This document shows positions 12,318 to 35,090 of a stretch of 64,000 nt of DNA, one piece after another. A program made the position numbers and the translations under genes. A model generated the notes under the pieces. The model saw only the letters and a list, made by a program, of their open reading frames with translations. It ran no database searches and was not told where the DNA came from. The stretch is from positions 1,116,001 to 1,180,000 of the forward strand of contig NC_014377.1 in the NCBI RefSeq assembly GCF_000144645.1. The letters are read 5' to 3'. The stretch comes from Thermosediminibacter oceani DSM 16646. GTDB lineage: Bacteria; Bacillota; Thermosediminibacteria; Thermosediminibacterales; Thermosediminibacteraceae. Position 1 is the stretch's first letter. The number at the start of each line of letters is the position of its first letter.

Positions 12318-12401
12318 TCGTGCTTTTTAAGTTTAAGAAGGAATTATTGGATTTATATAGAATTCAAATAATGCAAAAAATAGCATTGGGAAGTGAGTTT
12401 T

Positions 12402-14420
12402 ATGCAAATTATAGTAGCAGAGAATGCTGGCTTTTGTTTTGGAGTAAAAAATGCCGTGCGATTGCTGGAAGATCTGATAAAAAAAAGGGAAAAAACCTAC
12501 ACTCTAGGGCCTATCGTGCACAACCAGCAGGTAGTTGAGAAAATGGAGAACCTGGGCGTTAAAGCTGTGGACTTGGATGATATAAGCGAAGGGAATCTGG
12601 TTATTCGAACCCACGGGGTACCGCCCGATGTTATAGAACAAGCCCGCCAAAAGGGTTTAAACGTGATTGATGCCACCTGTCCGTTTGTTAAAAAAGTTCA
12701 GAAACTGGCTCGAGATATCTCCGAGAAGGACTGCACGGTGGTGATAATCGGCGACCCCAACCATCCAGAAGTGAAAGGTATAAAAGGTTGGTGCCCCGGC
12801 GAGGCGGTAGTAATCGAAAACGAGGAGGACGCCAGGAAGTTCTTTACGGATAAAAGGGTGGGGGTCGTCGTCCAGACGACCCAAACCGAAGAAAACGTGA
12901 AGAAGATAATGGATATATTGAAAGAGAAACTGGATCTGGCGTTTTTTTATAATACCCGGTGTAACGCCACCCACCAAAGGCAGAAAGCGGCGAAAAAAGT
13001 TGCGGAATCTGTTGAAGTAATGCTGGTTGTGGGCGGTAAGAACAGCTCCAATACGAAAAAACTGGCGCAGGTCTGTCAGAATGTAGGGGCAAAAGTGTAC
13101 CACATTGAGACCGCAGACGAAATAAAAAAAGAGTGGTTTCGGGGAGTCGAAAAAGTCGGAATAACTGCAGGTGCTTCTACACCTGACTGGATTATAAAGG
13201 AGGTTATTTCCAAAATGGAAGAAATTTCTAGAGAAATGGAAAATCAACAAGGAGAAGTAGCTTACGAGGATGGAATTTCGGAACTCGCAGAAGGTAAAAT
13301 TGTTGAAGGCACTGTCGTGAAGGTAAGCGACAAAGAGGTTCTGGTGAATGTAGGCCATAAATCGGACGGCATAATACCCCTTAACGAGCTGTCGAACTTA
13401 CCTTTCTCATCGCCTTCTGAAATTGTAAAAACTGGGGATCGGATCAAAGTGCAAATTTTAAAACTTGAAGATAATGAGGGTAATTTGATTCTTTCAAAAA
13501 AGAGAGCCGATGTAATCGAGGCTTGGAGATATCTGGAGGAGGCTTTTGAAAAGAAACAAACCGTAGAGGGAAGGGTTATAGAGAGCATAAAAGGCGGTCT
13601 CCTAGTCAACGTCAAGGGAGTGAGAGGTTTTATTCCTGCATCCCACGCTGACCTTAAATACGTAGCTGATCTATCGGTCTACGTGGGGAAAGACCTGAAA
13701 TTAAAAGTAATAGAACTGGACAGGGATAAAAAGAGAGTTGTGCTTTCACACAAATTGTTCCTCCAGGAAGAAAAAGAGAAGTTGAAGGAGGAAATCTGGG
13801 AAAAAGTAAAAGAGGGCCAGGTCATTCGTGGGACGGTCAGGAAATTGACCGATTTTGGAGCTTTTGTGGACATAGGAGGATACGACGGGCTGATTCACAT
13901 ATCCGATCTGTCATGGCAGAGGGTAAACCACCCCTCCGAAGTTTTGAGTGAAAATCAGGAAGTAGATGTAAAGGTATTAAAAGTAGATAAGGAGCGAGGC
14001 CGTATATCCCTGGGACTAAAACAACTCACCCCCGATCCGTGGGAAAATATAGAACAGAAGTACGCTATAGGGCAAGTAGTCCAAGGCAAGGTGGTAAAAC
14101 TTACCAATTTCGGTGCTTTTGTGGAATTAGAACCGGGGGTAGAAGGTCTAGTACACGTATCTCAGATTTCTAAAAAGCGTGTGGCTACCCCGAAGGATGT
14201 GTTAAAAGAGGGGGAAACCATAAAGGTAAAAATTCTTGATATAAAGCCAGAAGAAAAGAGGATAAGCCTCAGCATAAAACAGGCGCTCAACGAAGAACAG
14301 CCGCCGAGAAAAGAGGAAAAAGGAAAAAGAGAAGAGAAAACATCCTTTCCCAGGGAAGAACTTAACGTAACCATAGGTGACGTGGTGGGCGATATCTTGA
14401 AAAAAGGATTAAAACAATAA
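12402..14420 (+). CDS. ispH: Fused IspH (HMBPP reductase) - ribosomal protein S1 type protein
   Basis: A 672-aa bifunctional protein. Residues 1-285 are IspH/LytB, the 4Fe-4S enzyme of the last MEP-pathway step, with cluster cysteines C12 (GFCFGV), C93 (DATCPF) and C187 (TRCNAT). Residues 295-640 hold four S1 RNA-binding repeats (VEGTVVKVSDKEVLVNVG, VEGRVIESIKGGLLVNVK, IRGTVRKLTDFGAFVDIG, VQGKVVKLTNFGAFVELE), followed by a charged tail. The ATG at 12402 is chosen over the GTG 9 bases upstream for spacing to GGGAAG. This fusion is known in several Clostridia. fni downstream uses the IPP made here. Confidence 0.95.
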   Translation: MQIIVAENAGFCFGVKNAVRLLEDLIKKREKTYTLGPIVHNQQVVEKMENLGVKAVDLDDISEGNLVIRTHGVPPDVIEQARQKGLNVIDATCPFVKKVQKLARDISEKDCTVVIIGDPNHPEVKGIKGWCPGEAVVIENEEDARKFFTDKRVGVVVQTTQTEENVKKIMDILKEKLDLAFFYNTRCNATHQRQKAAKKVAESVEVMLVVGGKNSSNTKKLAQVCQNVGAKVYHIETADEIKKEWFRGVEKVGITAGASTPDWIIKEVISKMEEISREMENQQGEVAYEDGISELAEGKIVEGTVVKVSDKEVLVNVGHKSDGIIPLNELSNLPFSSPSEIVKTGDRIKVQILKLEDNEGNLILSKKRADVIEAWRYLEEAFEKKQTVEGRVIESIKGGLLVNVKGVRGFIPASHADLKYVADLSVYVGKDLKLKVIELDRDKKRVVLSHKLFLQEEKEKLKEEIWEKVKEGQVIRGTVRKLTDFGAFVDIGGYDGLIHISDLSWQRVNHPSEVLSENQEVDVKVLKVDKERGRISLGLKQLTPDPWENIEQKYAIGQVVQGKVVKLTNFGAFVELEPGVEGLVHVSQISKKRVATPKDVLKEGETIKVKILDIKPEEKRISLSIKQALNEEQPPRKEEKGKREEKTSFPREELNVTIGDVVGDILKKGLKQ

Positions 14421-16286: not shown

Positions 16287-17060
16287 TTGGACGGCTACCA
16301 GGAATTTATCGTCAGCGTTAAAAGATTGACAAATATTGACCTTTCCTTGTATAAGGAAAAGCAGATGAGAAGGCGCATAGACTCTCTTATGAAAAGAAAT
16401 AACATGCCGGACCTAATAAGCTACTTCAGGCTTTTAAAGCAGAGCGAGAAGCACCTGAAGGAATTTTTGAATTACATAACCATAAACGTGTCGGAATTTT
16501 TTCGAAATCCCATACAGTGGCAGGTGCTGGAAAAAGACATCTTGCCATACCTTATATCGAGCAGGAAGGTCTTGAAGGTATGGAGTTCGGCGTGCGCTTC
16601 CGGAGAAGAAGCGTATTCTCTGGCCTTGCTCTTCGAAAAAATTAATTACGACAGGGTTGAAATCCTTGCCACCGATATAGACGATGAGGCGCTGGAAGCG
16701 GCCCGGTTGGGAGTTTATTCGGAAAAAAGCGTGGAGAATATACCGGAAAATCTAAAGAAAAGATATTTTACGGTGAAAGAAGGTCAGTATGCGATAAATG
16801 ATGAAATAAAAAGGAAGGTAAAATTTAAAAACCTCAACTTGCTGGAAGACGAATTTCCGGCAAACTGCCATCTTATTTTGTGCAGGAACGTTATGATATA
16901 TTTTACTGAGGAGGCTAAAGACAGGCTCTACAGGAAATTTTATAATTCGCTGGCCGATGACGGTGTATTCTTTGTCGGCAATACGGAGCAGATTATTATG
17001 CCGCAAAAATACGGTTTTGTGAGCATTAAAAGCTTTTTTTATAAAAAGATAAAGTTATAA
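16287..17060 (+). CDS. cheR: CheR-type protein-glutamate O-methyltransferase
   Basis: A 257-aa SAM-dependent methyltransferase for chemoreceptor glutamates. The all-helical CheR N-terminal domain covers residues 1-70 and the Rossmann domain the rest, with WSSACASGEEAYSLA as the SAM loop and CRNVMIYF typical of the family. The TTG at 16287 is preferred for spacing to AGGGGG over the TTG at 16281. No other chemotaxis gene is nearby and strong terminators lie on both sides, so it is a stand-alone unit. Confidence 0.92.
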   Translation: MDGYQEFIVSVKRLTNIDLSLYKEKQMRRRIDSLMKRNNMPDLISYFRLLKQSEKHLKEFLNYITINVSEFFRNPIQWQVLEKDILPYLISSRKVLKVWSSACASGEEAYSLALLFEKINYDRVEILATDIDDEALEAARLGVYSEKSVENIPENLKKRYFTVKEGQYAINDEIKRKVKFKNLNLLEDEFPANCHLILCRNVMIYFTEEAKDRLYRKFYNSLADDGVFFVGNTEQIIMPQKYGFVSIKSFFYKKIKL

Positions 17061-17096
17061 TACCGCTAATTAAAGTAAGAGAAGAAATTCGAAAGC

Positions 17097-17121
17097 AAGA
17101 GCTCTTTCGGGGCTCTTTTTT
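17097..17121 (+). terminator. Terminator after cheR
   Basis: AAGAGC/GCTCTT stem followed by four more T. Confidence 0.75.
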
Positions 17122-17282
17122 CATGTCTAAAATAAAAGAGGCCGTTACGGCCTGTCATGTTAAATATACTAATATCCCGGCGTAGATTGATATGCTCCCA
17201 TTGTAGTAGACAGTTGAAATAATAAAAACTGTTACTTCAAGGGGGGCATATTTGTTTATTGCATAATTAAAATGGACAGAGT

Positions 17283-18200
17283 TGCAAAATAAAATCCCCA
17301 CTTTTGCAACTCAAAAATCCCCAAATTTGCAAAGGTCATTGCAGGCACCCCTAAAAACCTTTACCCTTGTAGTTAGGGACAACTTAACTGCAAGGGAGGA
17401 TTGGAGGATGCTCACAATGACCCAAATTAATGATATCAGAAAAGCATTCTTTATGAAAGGGCAAAATATCAGCGAGATAGCCCGGGAGTTCCAAAAAGAC
17501 CGAAAAACGATACGCAAGTATATCTATCAAGTGGACTGGAACACCAGGGTTAAAGTTGAAGAAGTTAAACATACCTTCCCAAAACTCGACCCTTTCAAGG
17601 CGGATATAGATAAGTGGCTTGTCGCAAAAAGCAGAGGCATACCGCCAAAGCAGGACCTAAAAGATTGCAAATTTCTCGAAGAAAAGAAAAACCTGATCCT
17701 TTACGGCAACGTGGGAACCGGCAAAACCCATCTTGCCACAGCTATCGGTGTGGAGGCCTGTAAAAAGGGATTCAACGTAAAATTTTTCCGCACTGCAGCA
17801 CTGGTAAACCGGCTGGTAGAAGCCCGGAAGGGAGGTGAACTTTCCGGGTTACTGAAACAGCTTTCCAAACCGGATCTTCTGACTGCGACGAATGGGGCTA
17901 TGTTCCTTTGGACCGCGAAGGAGCGCAGCTACTTTTTCAGGTGATTTCGGACTGCTATGAACGTCGCAGTGTAGTAATTACCACTAACCTGGAATTCAGC
18001 CGCTGGGCGAGCATTTTCTACGATGAGCAGATGACAGCAGCAATGATTGACCGGCTAATACACCACAGTTACCTATTGATCTTTGATGGTCAAAGCTACC
18101 GGATGAGGCAATCACTCATGAGGCAGTTAAGTTAACATAAAAATTCCCCACCGGTGCCTGGGGAAAAATCTTTGCAAAAATGGGGAATTTCCTCTTGCGA
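17283..18200 (+). mobile_element. Decayed IS21-family element nested in the IS3 remnant
   Basis: The left end (TGCAAAATAAAATCCCCAC) and right end (reverse strand CGCAAGAGGAAATTCCCCA) are matching inverted repeats. The coding part is a deletion fusion of istA and istB. About 900 bp remain, against more than 2 kb for a full IS21. Confidence 0.75.
17417..18135 (+). pseudogene. IS21 istA-istB deletion fusion, frameshifted
   Basis: It starts as IstA (MTQINDIRKAFFMKGQNISE, a helix-turn-helix that binds IS ends) and after about 70 codons jumps into the middle of IstB, the AAA+ helper ATPase (Walker A LYGNVGTGKTH). Around 17880-17890 the frame is lost, and the IstB C-terminus (ISDCYERRSVVITTNLEFSR...) continues in another frame up to 18135. 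The whole transposase domain is gone. Shine-Dalgarno GGAGG is still present. Confidence 0.85.
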
Positions 18201-18205
18201 AAAAC

Positions 18206-18580
18206 ATGTTTGAGACTTTTGATATAGCGGTTGCCAGCCATCCTGATGCAAAACTCATCTTTCATAGTGACCGTGGATTACAATATACAAATAAAGCATT
18301 TAAAGCAAAACTGGATAAGGTAGGAATGACACAGAGTATGTCTAGGGTAGGCCGCTGTATAGATAATGGCCCTATGGAGGGATTCTGGGGAATCCTGAAA
18401 TCGGAGATGTATTACTCACATAAGTTTGATGACTATGATAGCTTGAAAAAAGCGATTGAGGAATACATAGATTACTACAATACAAGGAGATACCAGAAAC
18501 GTTTAAAATGCATGACGCCTATGGAGTATAGCAACTATCTTGCCTGTATGCAGCATAAAGAAAGCACCAACCATTTTTGA
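18206..18580 (+). pseudogene. IS3-family transposase OrfB, C-terminal fragment
   Basis: 124 residues of the DDE integrase core: FHSDRGLQYTNKAF contains the second catalytic Asp, and DNGPMEGFWGILKSEMYY the Glu, followed by the usual YYNTRRYQKRLKCMTPMEY end. The first catalytic Asp and the orfA frame are missing because the IS21 element replaces them. Confidence 0.88.
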
Positions 18581-18720
18581 TTGGTGCCTTACATAGAATT
18601 TTAATTATTTCCACTGTCTACTTGACAGGGGGCAGTTCAGATCCGGGGGTGATTTTGTTTTTTTATTTGACCTAAATTGTGACTTTTTCACAATTTTATC
18701 CATTTTAAAAGGTCATGAAA

Positions 18721-18743
18721 ATAACCTCCGTTATAGGAGGATT
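18721..18743 (-). terminator. Probable terminator of the tRNA operon
   Basis: Read on the minus strand: CCTCC, 6-nt loop, GGAGG, then TTATTTTC, 12 bases past the tRNA-Lys CCA end. Confidence 0.6.
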
Positions 18744-18756
18744 AAGGTATAAAAAA

Positions 18757-18832
18757 TGGTGGGCCATGTAGGCTTCGAACCCACGACACCCTGATTAAGA
18801 GTCAGGTGCTCTACCAACTGAGCTAATGGCCC
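18757..18832 (-). tRNA. tRNA-Lys (anticodon CTT)
   Basis: Complete cloverleaf with acceptor GGGCCAT/ATGGCCC, anticodon loop CTCTTAA and encoded CCA. Last of four tRNAs in one minus-strand operon. Confidence 0.95.
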
Positions 18833-18842
18833 ACATTAGATA

Positions 18843-18928
18843 TGGTGGAGAGAGGTGGATTCGAACCACCGAAGGCATCGCCAGCAGATTTACAGTCTGC
18901 CCCCTTTGGCCAGCTCGGGAATCTCTCC
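18843..18928 (-). tRNA. tRNA-Tyr (anticodon GTA)
   Basis: 86 nt with a long variable arm, acceptor GGAGAGA/TCTCTCC, anticodon loop CTGTAAA, CCA encoded. Confidence 0.95.
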
Positions 18929-18937
18929 ACATTTTTA

Positions 18938-19013
18938 TGGAGCCGACGATGGGACTCGAACCCGCAACCTGCTGATTACAAATCAGCTGCTCTGCCAATT
19001 GAGCTACGTCGGC
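18938..19013 (-). tRNA. tRNA-Thr (anticodon TGT)
   Basis: Acceptor GCCGACG/CGTCGGC, anticodon loop TTTGTAA, discriminator U, CCA encoded. Confidence 0.95.
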
Positions 19014-19018
19014 AAAAT

Positions 19019-19095
19019 TGGTGGGCCCACTAGGACTCGAACCTAGAACCGGCCGGTTATGAGCCGGCTGCTCTGACCGGTTGAGCTATGGGCCC
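19019..19095 (-). tRNA. tRNA with anticodon CAT (Met elongator or lysidine Ile2)
   Basis: Acceptor GGGCCCA/TGGGCCC, anticodon loop CTCATAA, CCA encoded. The acceptor stem begins with a G-C pair, so it is not an initiator. The body (TTAGAGCA-like D arm, CGGCTCATAACCG) resembles both Met elongator and Ile2 tRNAs; the sequence alone does not decide. Confidence 0.93.
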
Positions 19096-19117
19096 TCATT
19101 CCCGAAACGCAATTTAA

Positions 19118-19146
19118 AGTATACAATAAAATCTCGTTTTCGTCAA
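19118..19146 (-). promoter_or_regulatory. Promoter of the Met/Thr/Tyr/Lys tRNA operon
   Basis: Minus strand: TTGACG, 17 bp, TATACT, ending 22 bp before the first tRNA. The A/T-rich block just upstream (19151-19165) could act as an UP element and abuts the IS481-like copy. Confidence 0.8.
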
Positions 19147-19165
19147 TACGTTTTTAAAAAAAATT

Positions 19166-19751
19166 TGTAGATGAGCCACAGTTTCGTTCACACTACTTTA
19201 TTAAAGTGAAAAAGACATTGCAAAGGGTGGGTATCCCTGGGGTATTATGATGGAATGGCACAACAAAAACCCTAAGGAGGGATCACACTCAATGACATTA
19301 TAGCAAAAACTTAAAGCTTCTGGTAATCCCCAGGTTATCGCTCAAATTACTATCTCTTTGTTAGAGTTCCATTCCTTTAAGGAAACCGCTAAAATTTTAG
19401 GTGTTTCTACAAGATGGATCTATAAAATAGTGGAGCGTTTTATAAGAAGGCGCTATGGTATACGCTGCCGTAAACACAGGACAGTTAACGGTTCTCGCCG
19501 CTTTGCAGTAGATTTCTCAGCATTTGAACCTTTTTCAATTACAGGTGGCCGCTTTGGCAAAAACATGAACGGAATGATTCCTGTTGCTGTTGAGGCGTTA
19601 AAGTTTTATCGCTGCCTTTATCATTCTGCAATTGGTTCTATGCCTTTTAGATCATTTTTCTAATTCCGTTTTCTTGCTTTTTGATATACTCTGCCCTGGG
19701 ATAACATACTCAGAATAAAAAGCTATTGAATGAAGCTATGGTATATCTACA
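19166..19751 (+). mobile_element. IS481-like element, internally deleted copy
   Basis: The left end TGTAGATGAGCCACAG is identical to that of the intact copy at 33699, and the right end reads TGTAGATATACCATAG on the minus strand. It is 586 bp against 1270 bp for the intact copy; two internal stretches are missing. It lies 19 bp upstream of the -35 box of the tRNA operon. Flanking 15-mers are both A/T-rich but only partly alike, so any target duplication has decayed. Confidence 0.85.
19292..19663 (+). pseudogene. IS481-like transposase, nonsense mutation plus two deletions
   Basis: The ATG after AAGGAGG is followed by TAG at codon 4, where the intact copy has a Tyr codon. The frame then continues (LLEFHSFKETAKILGVSTRW) but jumps from the helix-turn-helix to RRRYGIRCRKH and again from FSAFEPF to GRFGKNMNGM, removing all catalytic residues. 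Confidence 0.88.
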
Positions 19752-19770
19752 CAGTTTTAGAAAAATATAA

Positions 19771-19799
19771 TTGACAAGATAGGTGAGAAAAAATATAAT
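19771..19799 (+). promoter_or_regulatory. Perfect consensus sigma-A promoter
   Basis: TTGACA, 17 bp, TATAAT, 19 bp after the right end of the deleted IS copy and about 115 bp before the small peptide gene it should transcribe. Confidence 0.8.
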
Positions 19800-19919
19800 T
19801 AAATTATTATTAGAAAAATTTTAATAGTATGTATTAAATGATAAAGGTTTTTTAACGTGAATCTCTGAAATCAATAAGAATCTATTGTATAAATTACTGA
19901 GAGAAAGGAGGGAAGTGAA

Positions 19920-20003
19920 ATGATCGAGATTATATTTGAAGAAGTAAAAGTTGAGGATTTGGAAATTGAAAATGTAGTAGAGTCGAAGTCTCATGCTCAT
20001 TAA
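19920..20003 (+). CDS. Orphan 27-residue acidic peptide
   Basis: The ORF reads MIEIIFEEVKVEDLEIENVV followed by ESKSHAH and stops. The Shine-Dalgarno GAAAGGAGGGAAGTGAAATG is among the strongest in the window, an exact consensus promoter lies upstream and a hairpin terminator right after, so it has the layout of a real gene. The first 20 residues are acidic/hydrophobic, like a RiPP leader; the tail is His/Ser-rich. No radical-SAM, protease or transporter gene is adjacent. Function unknown; a leader peptide, secreted signal or RiPP precursor are all possible. Confidence 0.55.
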   Translation: MIEIIFEEVKVEDLEIENVVESKSHAH

Positions 20004-20012
20004 AATTTTAGA

Positions 20013-20044
20013 AGAATCAGATACTTGTTTATCTGATTCTTTCT
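20013..20044 (+). terminator. Terminator after the 27-residue peptide gene
   Basis: Perfect 11-bp stem AGAATCAGATA/TATCTGATTCT with a 6-nt loop and a short T-rich tail. Confidence 0.75.
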
Positions 20045-20092
20045 CGTTTAATAATGTAAAATATTATGGCCTCGTATGCTTTGATATAAAGT

Positions 20093-20626
20093 TCAGATAG
20101 TAAAAAAAACAGTCGTTAATCCTGCGGTTTTAATGACGAAGGGGAATTTCTTTTCTCTAAGAGGCCTGGAATTCCAGGCTGTAACAATAGGGTCAAGGTT
20201 TTTACATAGTTCAGAGATTGTAGATTTTGAAAACTCGGTACCGCAAAGCTCGTAGGTTATTTCTTCAATTTTCCGGGTAGATACCCCGTTAACCACCATT
20301 TCCATTAATGCCAGTAAGAGAGCCTGTTCGCTTTTCTGGTAACGGCGAAAGATGTCAGTAGTGAGCTTACCGTTGCGGAGCCTTGGAACTCTTAACGTAA
20401 GGGTGCCGACTCTGGTAACAAGATTTCTCTGATGGCAACTGTTAAGGTAATCTTTTCTCTCTTCGGTTCTTTCATAAGGTTCAGCTTTGATTTGCTCGGT
20501 GGCCTGTGCTTGTAGTATTTGGTTGAGTACGGACTCCAATAGTTTGGCCATCTCTTCATCTTTAGCTCCTTTTAAAAAGAGGTGGTGCAAAATTTCAGAA
20601 TCAATGGTAATATTATATTGAGCCAT
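20093..20626 (-). pseudogene. IS256/Mutator transposase, truncated
   Basis: About 163 residues match the start of IS256-type transposases, including LRVPRLRNGKLTTDIFRRYQ and the ISELCKNLDPIVTAWNSRPL segment just before the first catalytic Asp. The frame departs after KKFPFVI into 10 unrelated residues, so the DDE domain is absent. Confidence 0.85.
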
Positions 20627-20755
20627 TTCTCATTCCTCCAGTTAGGTGTTTGGGGTCTCAATTTAATTCTAACCAGAGGGGTGAGGGTGGCTCAACCTTT
20701 TTAAAACTCCCTTTTTATACAATTATATGGACTTAACTTTTAACACTCCTTTGAT
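20093..20755 (-). mobile_element. IS256-family fragment
   Basis: Holds the N-terminal 40 percent of a Mutator-type transposase and the upstream end of the element, read on the minus strand as GGAGTGTTAAAAGTTAAGTC near 20755. The other end is missing. Confidence 0.7.
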
Positions 20756-20939
20756 ACTGACTCAAAGATTGGAAGGAAATAAGTGCTAAATAGGTGTAGA
20801 TCTAACGGAAAAGCGAATGAAAATTTTTTACAAGACTAAGATTTTGATATTTATATACGCTTCTTATAAATTTTTGTCCCAAATGCAGGAAACTTAGAAA
20901 AGTTGTAGAAGTAATAATCTAAAGAGAGGGGGAGTAAAT
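20627..20939 (+). other. 313-bp non-coding stretch between the IS256 fragment and the M42 operon
   Basis: The first 130 bases are the IS256 upstream end. The rest is A/T-rich with a plausible promoter at 20828-20856 (TTTACA, 17 bp, TTTATA) for the peptidase operon. No ORF with a ribosome site is seen. Confidence 0.5.
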
Positions 20940-21989
20940 TTGGATGTCAGGGAATTGCTGATGGAACTTTTATCAGCTGATATACCGTCCGGATGCGAAG
21001 TGGACAGATCTAACTACTTGGTACAAATCTTTCAAAGGTACTGCGAAGATGTATCGGTTGATAAGCTGGGCAACGTAATAGCAAGAAAAGGAGCAAAGGA
21101 CGCAAAAATAAAGGTCATGCTTGCTGCGCATATGGATGAAATAGGTTTGATGGTAAAACAGATCGACGATAGGGGATTTATCCGTTTCTCCTATATAGGA
21201 GGTATAGATCATCGTATATTACCTGCCCAGGAAGTAATAATTCACGGTAGGGAAAAAGTTCCGGGTGTAATAGGCAGCAAGCCTCCTCATATGCAGGAAC
21301 CTGAAGAGAGGAATAAAGCCCTTAAGCCCGAGGACATGTTCATCGATACCGGCTTGCCGGCAGAAAAAGTAAGAGAATTGATCAGGATCGGGGATGTTAT
21401 TACCTTCAAAAGAAAACCGTGTGAACTTTTGAATGGGTGTTTTTCCGGAAATGCTCTAGATGACAGGGCGGGAGTGGCCACTATTCTTTATTGCCTCGAG
21501 GAACTCGATAAATTACAGTTTTCTGCAGAAGTTTATGCCGTAGCTACCGCCCAGGAAGAAGTGGGGCTTAGAGGAGCTATAGTAAGCAGTTATCATCTCT
21601 ATCCAGATATAGGTATAGCGGTTGATGTCTGCCATGGCAATATGCCGGATGTGTCTGAAGAGGAAACCCACAAGCTGGGCAAAGGTCCGGCTATCGCCCT
21701 GGGACCCAATATCCATCCGAAGCTGTTTGATAGGCTAAAAAGCATCGCGGAAGATTACAACATTCCGTACCAGTTAAATCCCGAACCCTCAGCAACGGGT
21801 ACCGATGCCTGGGCAATGCAGATAACCAGGCAGGGTATTCCCACAGCGTTGATTTCAATTCCGCTCAGGTACATGCACACTACGGTAGAAACGCTCAACC
21901 TTGATGATATAAAGATCAGTGGACGGTTGCTGGCACTTTTCATATCGTCGCTCGATAGAGGTTTTGTGGAGGGGTTAAGATGTTATTAA
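20940..21989 (+). CDS. M42-family metallo-aminopeptidase, 1 of 3 in tandem
   Basis: A 349-aa M42 (FrvX/YsdC/PepA-like) peptidase, a family that forms dodecameric tetrahedral shells trimming peptides. The two-metal site is visible: AAHMDE, ALDDRAG, the catalytic QEEVGLRG, AVDVCHG and RYMHTT. It starts at TTG after GAGAGGGGG. The ATG of the next gene overlaps its end by 10 bp. Confidence 0.93.
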   Translation: MDVRELLMELLSADIPSGCEVDRSNYLVQIFQRYCEDVSVDKLGNVIARKGAKDAKIKVMLAAHMDEIGLMVKQIDDRGFIRFSYIGGIDHRILPAQEVIIHGREKVPGVIGSKPPHMQEPEERNKALKPEDMFIDTGLPAEKVRELIRIGDVITFKRKPCELLNGCFSGNALDDRAGVATILYCLEELDKLQFSAEVYAVATAQEEVGLRGAIVSSYHLYPDIGIAVDVCHGNMPDVSEEETHKLGKGPAIALGPNIHPKLFDRLKSIAEDYNIPYQLNPEPSATGTDAWAMQITRQGIPTALISIPLRYMHTTVETLNLDDIKISGRLLALFISSLDRGFVEGLRCY

Positions 21990-22993
21990 AGGAATTGACG
22001 GAGGCTTTCGGCGTTTCCGGAGCAGAGGAAGAGGTTAGAAATATCCTTAAACGTGAAATAGAAGGTCTGGCAAAGCTGAGGACCGACGCCCTGGGCAACC
22101 TTTTCTTTGAAAAACCCGGAAAAGATAAAAAACCTAAGATAATGCTGGCCGCCCATATGGATGAAGTCGGCCTTATGATCACGTCTATAGGTAAAAACGG
22201 CTGGCTTAAGTTTGACACTGTTGGTGGAATAGACGACAGGATCCTGGTCTCAAAAACGGTTCTAATAGGTCCTAAGAAGGTGAAAGGGGTTATAGGGGCA
22301 AAAGCCATACATCTGCAGGAACCTAAGGAACGGGAAACAGCGTTAAAGTCAAAGAATCTATACATAGATATAGGTGCCAAAGATAAGGAAGATGCGGAAA
22401 AAAAGGTCAAAGTAGGCGATTATGCCGTTTTCGATTCCCAGTTTGAACGCATCGGTGATTTGATCAAAGCAAAAGCCCTAGATGACAGGGTAGGCTGCTA
22501 TATAATTACCGAGATCCTGAAAAAAAATTATGACCTTACTATCGCTGGTGCCTTTACAGTTCAGGAAGAAATAGGCCTGAGAGGTTCTGCAGTGGCAGCT
22601 TACGCCATCGAACCCGATGTGGCGATCGTTATAGAAGGGACTTTTGCCGCCGACGTGCCTGAAAACAAAGAAGAAGGTTATAGTACCACCCTAGACAAAG
22701 GACCTGCAGTTACCCTAATGGACAAAACGTATATCGCCGACAGGCGACTGGTAGATAGAGTGATTCAGGTTGCGGAAAGAAAGGGAATTCCCTGCCAGCT
22801 GCGCAGGACCGCTTTTGGTGGTACTGACGCAGGTAGGATACATACGACAAAAGAAGGCATACCTACGATAGTGATTTCGGTGCCGTGCCGGTACATACAT
22901 TCACCTGCTGGGTTGGCGAGCCTTACGGATATACAAAATACAATAGCCTTAATAGACGCCCTCATTATAGATTTTCAGGAAAGGGGTTTATGA
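21980..22993 (+). CDS. M42-family metallo-aminopeptidase, 2 of 3
   Basis: A 337-aa paralogue with AAHMDE, ALDDRVG, QEEIGLRG and RYIHSP. Where copies 1 and 3 have Asp in AVDV, this one has VIEGTFAAD with Glu, a variant metal ligand that marks another M42 subgroup and may shift substrate preference. It is translationally coupled to both neighbours. Confidence 0.93.
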   Translation: MLLKELTEAFGVSGAEEEVRNILKREIEGLAKLRTDALGNLFFEKPGKDKKPKIMLAAHMDEVGLMITSIGKNGWLKFDTVGGIDDRILVSKTVLIGPKKVKGVIGAKAIHLQEPKERETALKSKNLYIDIGAKDKEDAEKKVKVGDYAVFDSQFERIGDLIKAKALDDRVGCYIITEILKKNYDLTIAGAFTVQEEIGLRGSAVAAYAIEPDVAIVIEGTFAADVPENKEEGYSTTLDKGPAVTLMDKTYIADRRLVDRVIQVAERKGIPCQLRRTAFGGTDAGRIHTTKEGIPTIVISVPCRYIHSPAGLASLTDIQNTIALIDALIIDFQERGL

Positions 22994-23973
22994 AGATGAA
23001 AGAATTGATAAAAAAGCTGACCGAAACTTATGGCCCCTCGGGCGAAGAGAGCAAAATCCGGGAAGTTATAATAGATGAAATAAAGGACTATGTCGATGAG
23101 ATTCGCGTGGATGTCCTGGGAAATATAATCGCAAGAAAAGCCGGGACGGGCGAAAAGATGATGCTGGCTGCCCACATGGATGAAATCGGCGTTATAATCA
23201 CAAACATTGACGACAAAGGTTTTCTCAGGTTTTCCAACATCGGAGGGGTATCGCCCTTTACCCTAATAGGCGAGAGAGTTATTTTTGAAAACGGGACCGT
23301 AGGTGTTTTCGGGATGGAAAAACTGGACTCAATAAAAGATTTGAAGTTCAACAAGATGTTCATCGACATCGGCGCGAGATCCAAAGAAGAAGCGCTAAAG
23401 AAGGTGCGCCTGGGAGACAAGGCGGTCTATTACAGGAGCTGCGATATAATCGGAGATTGCGTAACAGCCAAGGCCCTGGATGACAGGGCAGGATGCGCCG
23501 TACTGATACGAGCTTTGCAGAATCTTAAAAATCCTAAGTTCGATACCTATTTCGTGTTTACGGTACAGGAAGAAGTTGGCCTGCGTGGTGCCAGAACTTC
23601 GGCTTACGGAATAGAGCCGGATCTTGCCATTGCCGTAGATGTGACGTCAACCGGAGACACGCCCGAAGCGGAGAAAATGGCGGTGGAGCTGGGCAAAGGA
23701 CCTGCTGTGAAGATAATGGACCGATCGGTGATTTGTCATCCGAAGATAAAGGAGATGCTGATAGAGACCGCTGAAAAAAATAATATCCCCTATCAGTTAG
23801 AAGTGCTAGAATGGGGCGGAACCGATACGGGAGCCATTCACCTTACCAAGGCCGGAGTTCCATCCGGTTGTCTTTCCATACCGACAAGATATATCCACAC
23901 GCCATCGGAAGTGGCTTCAATTGATGATATCGAAAAAGCAACAGAACTGCTGCTACGCGTTCTGGAAAAATAA
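22990..23973 (+). CDS. M42-family metallo-aminopeptidase, 3 of 3
   Basis: A 327-aa protein starting in an ATGA overlap with copy 2 (an ATG two codons later is also possible). Motifs are AAHMDE, ALDDRAG, QEEVGLRG, AVDVTSTGD and RYIHTP. Three coupled paralogues suggest either mixed-subunit shells or division of labour by residue type, as described for archaeal TET peptidases. Confidence 0.93.
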   Translation: MKMKELIKKLTETYGPSGEESKIREVIIDEIKDYVDEIRVDVLGNIIARKAGTGEKMMLAAHMDEIGVIITNIDDKGFLRFSNIGGVSPFTLIGERVIFENGTVGVFGMEKLDSIKDLKFNKMFIDIGARSKEEALKKVRLGDKAVYYRSCDIIGDCVTAKALDDRAGCAVLIRALQNLKNPKFDTYFVFTVQEEVGLRGARTSAYGIEPDLAIAVDVTSTGDTPEAEKMAVELGKGPAVKIMDRSVICHPKIKEMLIETAEKNNIPYQLEVLEWGGTDTGAIHLTKAGVPSGCLSIPTRYIHTPSEVASIDDIEKATELLLRVLEK

Positions 23974-33650: not shown

Positions 33651-33679
33651 ATTATATAATATCTTAATTATAATGTCAA
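33651..33679 (-). promoter_or_regulatory. Promoter of tRNA-Trp
   Basis: Minus strand: TTGACA, 17 bp, TATAAT, an exact consensus, ending 11 bp before the tRNA. The IS481-like element begins 19 bp upstream of the -35 box. Confidence 0.85.
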
Positions 33680-33683
33680 AGGG

Positions 33684-33698
33684 TTATTTCTCGGCATT
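33684..33698. repeat. 15-bp target-site duplication, left copy
   Basis: TTATTTCTCGGCATT, repeated exactly at 34969-34983 on the far side of the IS. Confidence 0.9.
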
Positions 33699-34968
33699 TG
33701 TAGATGAGCCACAGTTTCGTTCACACTACTTTATTAAAGTGAAAAAGACATTGCAAAGGGTGGGTATCCCTGGGGTATTATGGATATGGAACAACAGAAA
33801 CCCACTAAGGAGGGATCCCACCCAATGACATTATACCAAAAACTTAAAGCTTCGGGTAATCCCCAGGCTGTTGCTCAAATCACTATCTCTTTACTTGAGT
33901 CTCATTCCGTTAAAGAAACCGCTAAAATCTTGGGTGTTACTCCAAGATGGGTGTATAAATTAAGAGAGCGTTTCAGGCTTTCTAATGGGGATATATCGGC
34001 CTGTATCAAAAAACGAGGACCTAAATTCCGCATGCCTAACAGAACTCCGGAGCACATCGAAAATTTGGTCGTTACTCTGGCAAAAGAAACTAATCTGGGC
34101 TCTAAAAGGCTGGCATTGTTCATTAAAAATACCTTCAATATTCAACTTTCCCCTTTTACTATTCGAAATATTAGAAGACGTTACGGTATACACTGCCGTA
34201 AACACAAGACGCTTACCGGCTCCCGCCGATTTGCTACAGATTTCTCCGCCTTCGAACCTTTGCAGCTCTGGCAGATCGATGCAAAACATATCGCCGATCA
34301 ATCGGCTTTGCCTCCCGAAGCTTATGCATCTATTTTCAAAAATAAGCTGCCTCCTTTTCAGTTCACTGCTATTGATATTAAAACAAGGTTGCGCTTTATT
34401 GCGTATGCCGATTCTCTCGATTTTAAAAATGGGTTGACTTTCATGCTGCTTGTGGCAGCCTGGCTTAGAGCCTTCGGTGTAAAACATCAACTCTTCTTTC
34501 AAACAGACAATGGAGCAGAGTTCGGAGGCAGTGCCGGCTCTCGTAAAAGAAAACTCATTCAAAAACTTATTTTCGATCATTGGAACGTATCTTTGCTTAA
34601 TATCCCGGAAAGGAATAAGGAAACAAATTGCTTCGTTGAACGCTCTCACCGCACTGATGATGAGGAGTTTTACGCTTTAAACTTGAAAAAAGTAACTTCA
34701 AGGACTTCATTCCTAAAGATGGCTCAAAATTGGATACTATATTTCAACTACAGGCGGCCGCATTTTGGCAAAAACATGAATGGAATGACTCCTGTTGAGG
34801 CGTTGAAGTTTTATCGCTGCTTTTATCATCCTGCAATTGGTTCTATGCCTGTAGTTGTTTTGGATCAGCTTTCTAATTACACTTCTTTGCTTTTTGACAT
34901 CTCTTCTTTGCCCTGGGATAACCTGCCCAGAAATAAAAAGCTATTGAACGAAACTATGGCACATTACA
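33699..34968 (+). mobile_element. IS481-like insertion sequence, complete copy (1270 bp)
   Basis: The ends are TGTAGATGAGCCACAGTTTC on the left and, on the minus strand, TGTAATGTGCCATAGTTTCG on the right; the repeat continues for over 30 bp. It is flanked by a perfect 15-bp duplication. It carries one transposase gene that opens towards the right and has no stop before the right end. A second, deleted copy lies at 19166. Confidence 0.92.
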
Positions 34969-35090
34969 TTATTTCTCGGCATTCCTCATTATATATCTCT
35001 TTATCGGTTTTGTTTTGTTATAATATTGTTAAGAAATCCCCGAGTCAACGGTTAGAGGGTAGAGGGTGTAAAATTACAAGGAGCAGGTAA
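33825..35090 (+). CDS. IS481-like DDE transposase
   Basis: 421 aa. The N-terminal helix-turn-helix (SVKETAKILGVTPRWVYKLRERF) is followed by a second HTH region and the RNase H-like catalytic core: LWQIDAKHI (first Asp), FFQTDNGAEFGG (second Asp), and NCFVERSHRTDDEEFY (Glu). FNYRRPHFGKNMNGMTPVE is the usual end of rve cores. The ATG after AAGGAGG is chosen. The frame runs past the IS right end (34968), through the target duplication and about 35 codons of host DNA before stopping, so the C-terminus depends on the insertion site. Confidence 0.92.
   Translation: MTLYQKLKASGNPQAVAQITISLLESHSVKETAKILGVTPRWVYKLRERFRLSNGDISACIKKRGPKFRMPNRTPEHIENLVVTLAKETNLGSKRLALFIKNTFNIQLSPFTIRNIRRRYGIHCRKHKTLTGSRRFATDFSAFEPLQLWQIDAKHIADQSALPPEAYASIFKNKLPPFQFTAIDIKTRLRFIAYADSLDFKNGLTFMLLVAAWLRAFGVKHQLFFQTDNGAEFGGSAGSRKRKLIQKLIFDHWNVSLLNIPERNKETNCFVERSHRTDDEEFYALNLKKVTSRTSFLKMAQNWILYFNYRRPHFGKNMNGMTPVEALKFYRCFYHPAIGSMPVVVLDQLSNYTSLLFDISSLPWDNLPRNKKLLNETMAHYIISRHSSLYISLSVLFCYNIVKKSPSQRLEGRGCKITRSR
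34969..34983. repeat. 15-bp target-site duplication, right copy
   Basis: TTATTTCTCGGCATT, identical to 33684-33698. Confidence 0.9.

Follow-up and report, generated by a model that had tools for sequence, protein, structure and literature searches.

A sigma-A unit for an acidic 27-residue peptide in Thermosediminibacter oceani beside the probable relic of an IS481-like kind of element found at a fixed distance upstream of sigma-A promoters

Why does a well-formed expression unit for a peptide of only 27 residues stand amid the debris of insertion sequences, and does the peptide or its mobile neighbor make the locus worth attention? The locus lies in a window of 64,000 nucleotides, by which we mean the whole stretch of DNA analyzed (positions 1116001-1180000 of the 2,280,035-bp T. 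oceani chromosome). We are fairly confident that it is a complete sigma-A unit for an acidic peptide and that its neighbor is the relic of an IS481-like kind of element that inserts upstream of promoters.

The peptide unit and its insert

The unit and the mobile element that follows it consist of these parts:

19771-19799, plus strand: sigma-A promoter of the peptide gene, TTGACA-17-TATAAT, 12/12 matches to the consensus, with the start of the -35 box 19 nt from the end of an IS
19904-19912, plus strand: Shine-Dalgarno sequence AAAGGAGGG, 7 nt upstream of the ATG at 19920
19920-20003, plus strand: open reading frame of 27 codons, MIEIIFEEVKVEDLEIENVVESKSHAH, encoding an acidic peptide (pI 4.4, charge about -6)
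20011-20042, plus strand: 13-bp hairpin, a probable intrinsic terminator (-15.1 kcal/mol, z -5.1)
20133-20742, minus strand: fragment of an IS256-like (Mutator) element with a truncated transposase, recognized by sequence matches

The consensus promoter, the strong ribosome site, and the 27-codon frame with its ESKSHAH tail are all present as the initial annotation had described them; the peptide has no cysteine and no hydrophobic signal. The terminator stem that was also proposed holds as a hairpin (z -5.1) but is 13 pairs long instead of 11; its T tail is interrupted, and a scan for intrinsic terminators, which found none, made no call there.

The unit is improbable by chance. When the 378 bp of 19755-20132 were shuffled with dinucleotides preserved, a perfect promoter (spacer of 16-18) appeared in 0.025% of 20,000 shuffles, an ATG properly spaced from AGGAGG in 0.6% of 20,000, while 1.25% of 2,000 formed a perfect hairpin of at least 10 bp. 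The 64-kb window contains two perfect promoters, the second at 33679 on the minus strand, and on both strands the peptide unit is the sole combination of a perfect promoter, a Shine-Dalgarno sequence, and a frame of at least 20 codons. The G+C content of 19755-20050 is 25%, against 43.5% for the window. The description of a well-formed expression unit amid IS debris is one that we support.

That debris is 1.69 kb of mobile DNA, and its extent, 19167-20854, is absent from a sister species of the same genus (G001), where the tRNA array directly adjoins a peptidase gene that we take to be of the M42 type. The array likewise stands beside the peptidase gene without the insert in five other genomes of the family, and in the seventh genome compared the contig stops before the tRNAs. 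The insert holds an internally deleted IS481-like remnant (hereafter IS A, as are its full copies), the peptide unit, and the truncated IS256-like element, which starts about 90 nt past the hairpin in antisense orientation; within 19167-20854, the only open reading frames of at least 60 residues are IS fragments. Since the insert is missing in the relatives and its other recognized parts are IS pieces, the peptide gene is a lineage-specific acquisition without a gene of its own beside it. The unit probably came on AT-rich foreign DNA beside the tRNA array, and it now stands between two IS remnants.

Other features of the neighborhood were also recorded. A second insertion of about 1.69 kb (17060-18748), also missing in the sister species, flanks the tRNA array at its opposite end and holds fragments of istB (IS21) and of an integrase core (rve). 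Three tandem paralogous peptidase genes (20940-23973), about 40% identical to the first, occur in 8/9 family genomes searched. At 12393-14420, a single frame of 675 residues is, by sight, presumably a fusion of IspH (LytB) and ribosomal protein S1.

Readings of the peptide gene

The initial annotation had offered the peptide as a RiPP precursor or signal peptide parted from its maturation genes. An orphan precursor or signaling peptide whose modifying and export genes were lost in IS rearrangement would account for the short, acidic, leader-like sequence, the strong expression signals, and the mobile context; the searches that it had suggested for relatives and for SHAH tails, nonetheless, brought no support. 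In overlapping sets of genomes from the order (22), the class (26), and the phylum (398), the query was the sole credible match; the strongest foreign one in the phylum set had an E of 0.32 within a frame of 316 residues, and no relative was found in phages or plasmids. Neither Pfam, NCBIfam, nor PHROGs gave a family match, and a PDB search gave two weak chance matches. The tail pattern had 12 matches in the GTDB contig collection; none of the 11 checked (8 out of frame, 3 in frame) resembles the peptide, and in viral contigs one tail pattern gave no match and another gave 24, all out of frame. At the DNA level, plasmids contained no match to 19740-20140, and the match in phages was one of 37 bases due to chance, in two records of one phage.

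Maturation genes are also wanting: the insert has no maturase and no frame of at least 60 residues other than the IS fragments, no maturation or export gene adjoins the unit, and no conserved leader was found in the related genomes. The two maturation families searched for, SPASM and PqqD, have one match each in the genome, both far from the peptide gene; the gene beside the PqqD match, named by sight, is presumably an OPT-type transporter. The peptide, furthermore, has no cysteine and no hydrophobic signal, as mentioned above. We consider an orphan RiPP precursor or signaling peptide unlikely. The main text of a survey of RiPPs in anaerobes (PMC4289311) does not name Thermosediminibacter.

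A structured functional RNA, which the initial annotation had also entertained, found no backing: 192/200 shuffles fold at least as well as the leader RNA, only tRNAs pass the Rfam gathering score over 17000-21200, and the one Rfam match over the peptide unit is a chance match to a snoRNA (E 4.4, below the cut-off). A leader-peptide attenuator whose regulated gene was removed by the IS256-like element would fit a short frame followed after 7 nt by a hairpin, with the IS256-like fragment about 90 nt further on. When the transcript was folded without the 3' arm, however, the 5' arm of the terminator was predicted to form short pairings and no clear antiterminator; the frame has no run of one codon, and downstream there is only the antisense IS256-like fragment in place of a regulated gene. 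An attenuator accordingly seems to us quite unlikely.

Because no relative of it was found, and because it has no neighboring gene of its own, no unusual leader structure, and no clear predicted antiterminator, the peptide gene is probably an acquired orphan small-protein gene. Judged from its signals, it is predicted to be transcribed and translated, probably both, and it is probably near neutral, with nothing pointing to a conserved function. Small monocistronic protein genes of Bacillota have a promoter, a strong ribosome site, a very short frame, and a terminator, and the peptide unit shares all of these but differs from them in that no relative of the peptide was found. Unless a relative or a transcript comes to light, the peptide gene is of little import.

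The IS481-like remnant and its relatives

The annotated distance of 19 bp between an IS481-like end and the promoter proved to be the most important clue: the remnant ends at 19751, an edge set by reading its ACA terminus, and 19 nt separate it from TTGACA. The remnant and an intact copy elsewhere in the window are laid out as follows:

19118-19146, minus strand: promoter of the tRNA-Met/Thr/Tyr/Lys array, TTGACG-17-TATACT, with 19 nt between the start of the -35 box and the remnant's left end
19166-19751, plus strand: internally deleted IS481-like remnant (IS A) with ends TGTAGAT...ATCTACA, matching other genomic copies in separate segments at 79-89% identity
19752-19766, no strand: position expected for the 15-bp target duplication on the right side of the remnant, by the rule from the other copies (left counterpart, 19151-19165)
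33651-33679, minus strand: perfect promoter of tRNA-Trp, TTGACA-17-TATAAT, with 19 nt between the -35 box and the left end of the intact IS A copy
33684-33698, no strand: left copy of the 15-bp target duplication, TTATTTCTCGGCATT, read from the sequence
33699-34968, plus strand: intact IS A copy of 1270 bp, TGTAGATG...CATTACA, upstream of tRNA-Trp, read from the sequence; the type example
34969-34983, no strand: right copy of the 15-bp target duplication, read from the sequence

At the intact copy, the order is thus the -35 box, 4 bp, the duplication, the element, and the second copy of the duplication. The left ends of IS A lie about 19 nt (the 15-bp target duplication plus 4) from an outward sigma-A -35 box. 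In T. oceani, 9/10 detectable left ends have a promoter of 10-12/12 matches with the start of the -35 box 17-20 nt away, and the tenth (L100, G000:C1:864400-866300), without a promoter, comes immediately behind another copy's target duplication. Of the eight well-formed sites in this genome, three are tRNA promoters (Met array, Trp, and Ser). One right end (L098) has a promoter of 11/12 at offset 40, off the standard place.

At the peptide gene itself, the geometry is less simple. The left end of the remnant faces the tRNA promoter, which the sister species also has, there without the IS, while the peptide promoter faces the right end, as judged by the coding sequence. Among the other right ends, none has a promoter at the standard place, be it the seven in T. 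oceani or the 51 of the related group 2 described below. This right end, read inward on the minus strand, starts TGTAGAT as left ends do, whereas the intact copy has TGTAATG. The flanks of the remnant (19151-19165 and 19752-19766) match poorly in the 15-bp register, with mismatches at 7/15 positions, although the empty site of the sister has GTTTATAGAAAAAT, to which the right flank, GTTTTAGAAAAAT, is similar. The remnant between the two promoters may be either one old insertion amid divergent promoters or the product of two fused events.

Elements with the TGTAGATG ends, which we call group 1, repeat the arrangement in distant relatives. Across 10 genomes, a promoter of at least 10/12 stands at the standard offset in 15/18 detectable left ends and a -35-like hexamer at the standard place in 17/18; the background in the window is 33 such promoters in about 128,000 positions. 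In the nine genomes besides T. oceani, 7/9 left ends have the promoter in place at 10/12 or better, and the remaining two have TTGACA there, followed in one by masked sequence. One of the genomes is that of Thermovirga lienii (Synergistota), with the element on a plasmid; a search for the transposase in viral contigs confirmed none, and in plasmids only that of T. lienii was found. The count takes loci with a recognizable left end and was drawn from 24 rows, leaving out the right end in the window and five loci (L060, L063, L073, L144, and L209) that have 7-8 mismatches and no such transposase known beside them; L124, with 7 mismatches, was kept as it adjoins a transposase match, and the remnant L102 (11/12 at offset 17) was left out.

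A larger set is provided by group 2, whose transposases are 32-35% identical to that of IS A and whose end sequences are different. Of the 13 genomes of one family, 12 carry it, and these belong to a single genus; one genome has 29 left-end matches. As it was found with one query in one genus, its sites share the element, not the flanks. The query had 89 left-end matches, of which 9 were left out (8 not starting at the first base of the element, and one 31 bases long); 6 of the 80 flanks fetched were duplicates, which left 74 distinct ends.

At 46/74 left ends, a promoter that matches at 10/12 or better points outward at offset 17-21 (58/74 at a threshold of 9/12), and at none of the 74 does one point inward, while shuffled flanks gave a mean of 0.32 and a maximum of 3 in 500 rounds. 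At right ends, the corresponding counts of outward promoters are 0/51 and 1/51. The orientation is thus constant and the spacing is fixed: over the 46 sites, the -35 box lies at offset 18.8 with a standard deviation of 0.70 nt. Exact duplications of 14-16 bp flank 35 of the 51 full copies, 24 of which have a promoter of at least 10/12; the other 16 copies show no exact duplication. The -35 and -10 signals are paired. Indeed, 30 sites have a -35 box of at most 4/6 matches, and a -10 box of at least 5/6 is in place in 19 of them, against a mean of 4.07 and a maximum of 10 in 300 shuffles.

Fifteen of the 74 sites (including L175, L186, L200, and L204) show nothing promoter-like at the standard place; three of these (L183, L216, and L217) have a signal of at least 10/12 at offset 24-33, and another (L212) is a poor left-end match with 13 mismatches. 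At such sites, another sigma factor may be involved, or targeting may be relaxed. From these 15 sites, the 16/51 copies without an exact duplication, and the T. oceani end inside another copy, it follows that targeting is not absolute. In the insert of the peptide gene, the stretch that leads from the IS256-like fragment to the old flank (20743-20854) has no other match in the genome, and AAATAGGTGTAGATCT at about 20787 resembles a group-2 left end by eye; clear homology to group-2 elements was not found for this stretch or for the peptide segment.

The best NCBIfam match for the transposases of both groups is the IS481 family (NF033577), at 124.6 and 110.1 bits, about half of the curated cut-off of 224; since the scores are below that cut-off, we call the elements only IS481-like. 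D167, D243, and E287 (numbering of the window transposase) are invariant in 4/4 sequences, and we take them to be the DDE catalytic triad. When the transposase profile was run against the PDB, the one match, weak and spanning 36 residues, was to a protein that is not a transposase. The IS481 family has TGT...ACA ends and duplicates a target of at most 15 bp. Group 1 shares with it these ends and a single frame in about 1.27 kb, and has a 15-bp duplication; group 2 has other ends and exact 14-16 bp duplications; and both share with it a DDE-type transposase with an N-terminal helix-turn-helix. The elements described here differ from the family in their long 15-bp duplication and in their fixed position upstream of sigma-A promoters.

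Proposed promoter recognition and its meaning

How might such sites be chosen? That the spacing reflects selection only, with insertions landing anywhere and surviving where genes stay intact, has in its favor that DNA inserted directly ahead of a promoter is expected to do little harm. Survival, however, cannot give a spread of 0.7 nt, nor can it give one fixed orientation (46/74 left ends against 0/51 right ends), and we regard selection alone as highly improbable.

The transposase might instead recognize the -35 hexamer simply as a DNA sequence, RNA polymerase being uninvolved. The offset to the -35 box is indeed tighter than that to the -10 box (standard deviation of 0.90 nt) and does not covary with spacer length in group 2, and the N-terminus of one group-2 transposase weakly matches sigma-70 region 4 (E 5e-4, below the cut-off); this match is a lead only, because other helix-turn-helix families match there too. 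The hexamer alone, nonetheless, cannot explain the good, well-placed -10 boxes at 19/30 sites with a poor -35 box. Reading of the plain hexamer is thus possible but doubtful. Since weak -35 sites often keep a strong -10, it looks as though working promoters are recognized rather than a lone hexamer.

We lean, with some reserve, towards the reading that this IS481-like group, found in Bacillota-type genomes and on a Synergistota plasmid, finds sigma-A promoters through contact with the holoenzyme or through mimicry of sigma region 4. The target would be recognized through the RNA polymerase holoenzyme or through a -35-binding domain of the transposase. On strand transfer, 15 bp starting 4 bp upstream of the -35 box are duplicated, at about -40 to -54 if that box is placed near -36; the element lies with its left end towards the promoter and its transposase gene pointing away, and the core promoter would presumably remain active after insertion. 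The stretch from -40 to -54 is where the C-terminal domains of the alpha subunit bind UP elements, and A-rich columns at offset 10-13 of the group-2 sites are consistent with it. A pre-insertion site was compared at one locus, namely the tRNA array of the sister species.

Simple insertion sequences that choose their sites are already known, and sigma-A promoter spacing is not among the literature matches listed; among these matches, drawn from open PMC papers, no report of IS insertion at a fixed position upstream of sigma-A promoters was found. To our knowledge, few simple insertion sequences choose a functional site over a short sequence. One comparison is with the ISAjo2-type elements (IS1202 family), which are reported (PMC10132070) to enter pdif and dif at a distance of 5 bp from the XerC site, and for which direct contact with bound XerC is suggested there. 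By that description, they resemble the present elements as simple IS without accessory targeting genes, with a constant orientation and a fixed distance to a protein-bound site, but their target is dif/pdif with a 5-bp duplication, whereas here it is sigma-A promoters with 15 bp.

A broader parallel is offered by yeast. Ty1 and Ty3 land safely just upstream of transcription units through the transcription machinery; they are retroelements that use RNA polymerase III factors, and the likeness to the IS described here is drawn as one of strategy, not of homology. Insertion at a fixed distance upstream of the start signals of genes would, in the same manner of safe landing, let mobile DNA land with genes unbroken. 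If the proposed homing is true, the reading of promoters to about one nucleotide would explain how these IS spread with little harm, and it would open a direct route to the question of how promoters, or RNA polymerase bound to them, are sensed by a transposase; the left ends of these elements would, furthermore, mark sigma-A promoters in genomes without transcript maps.
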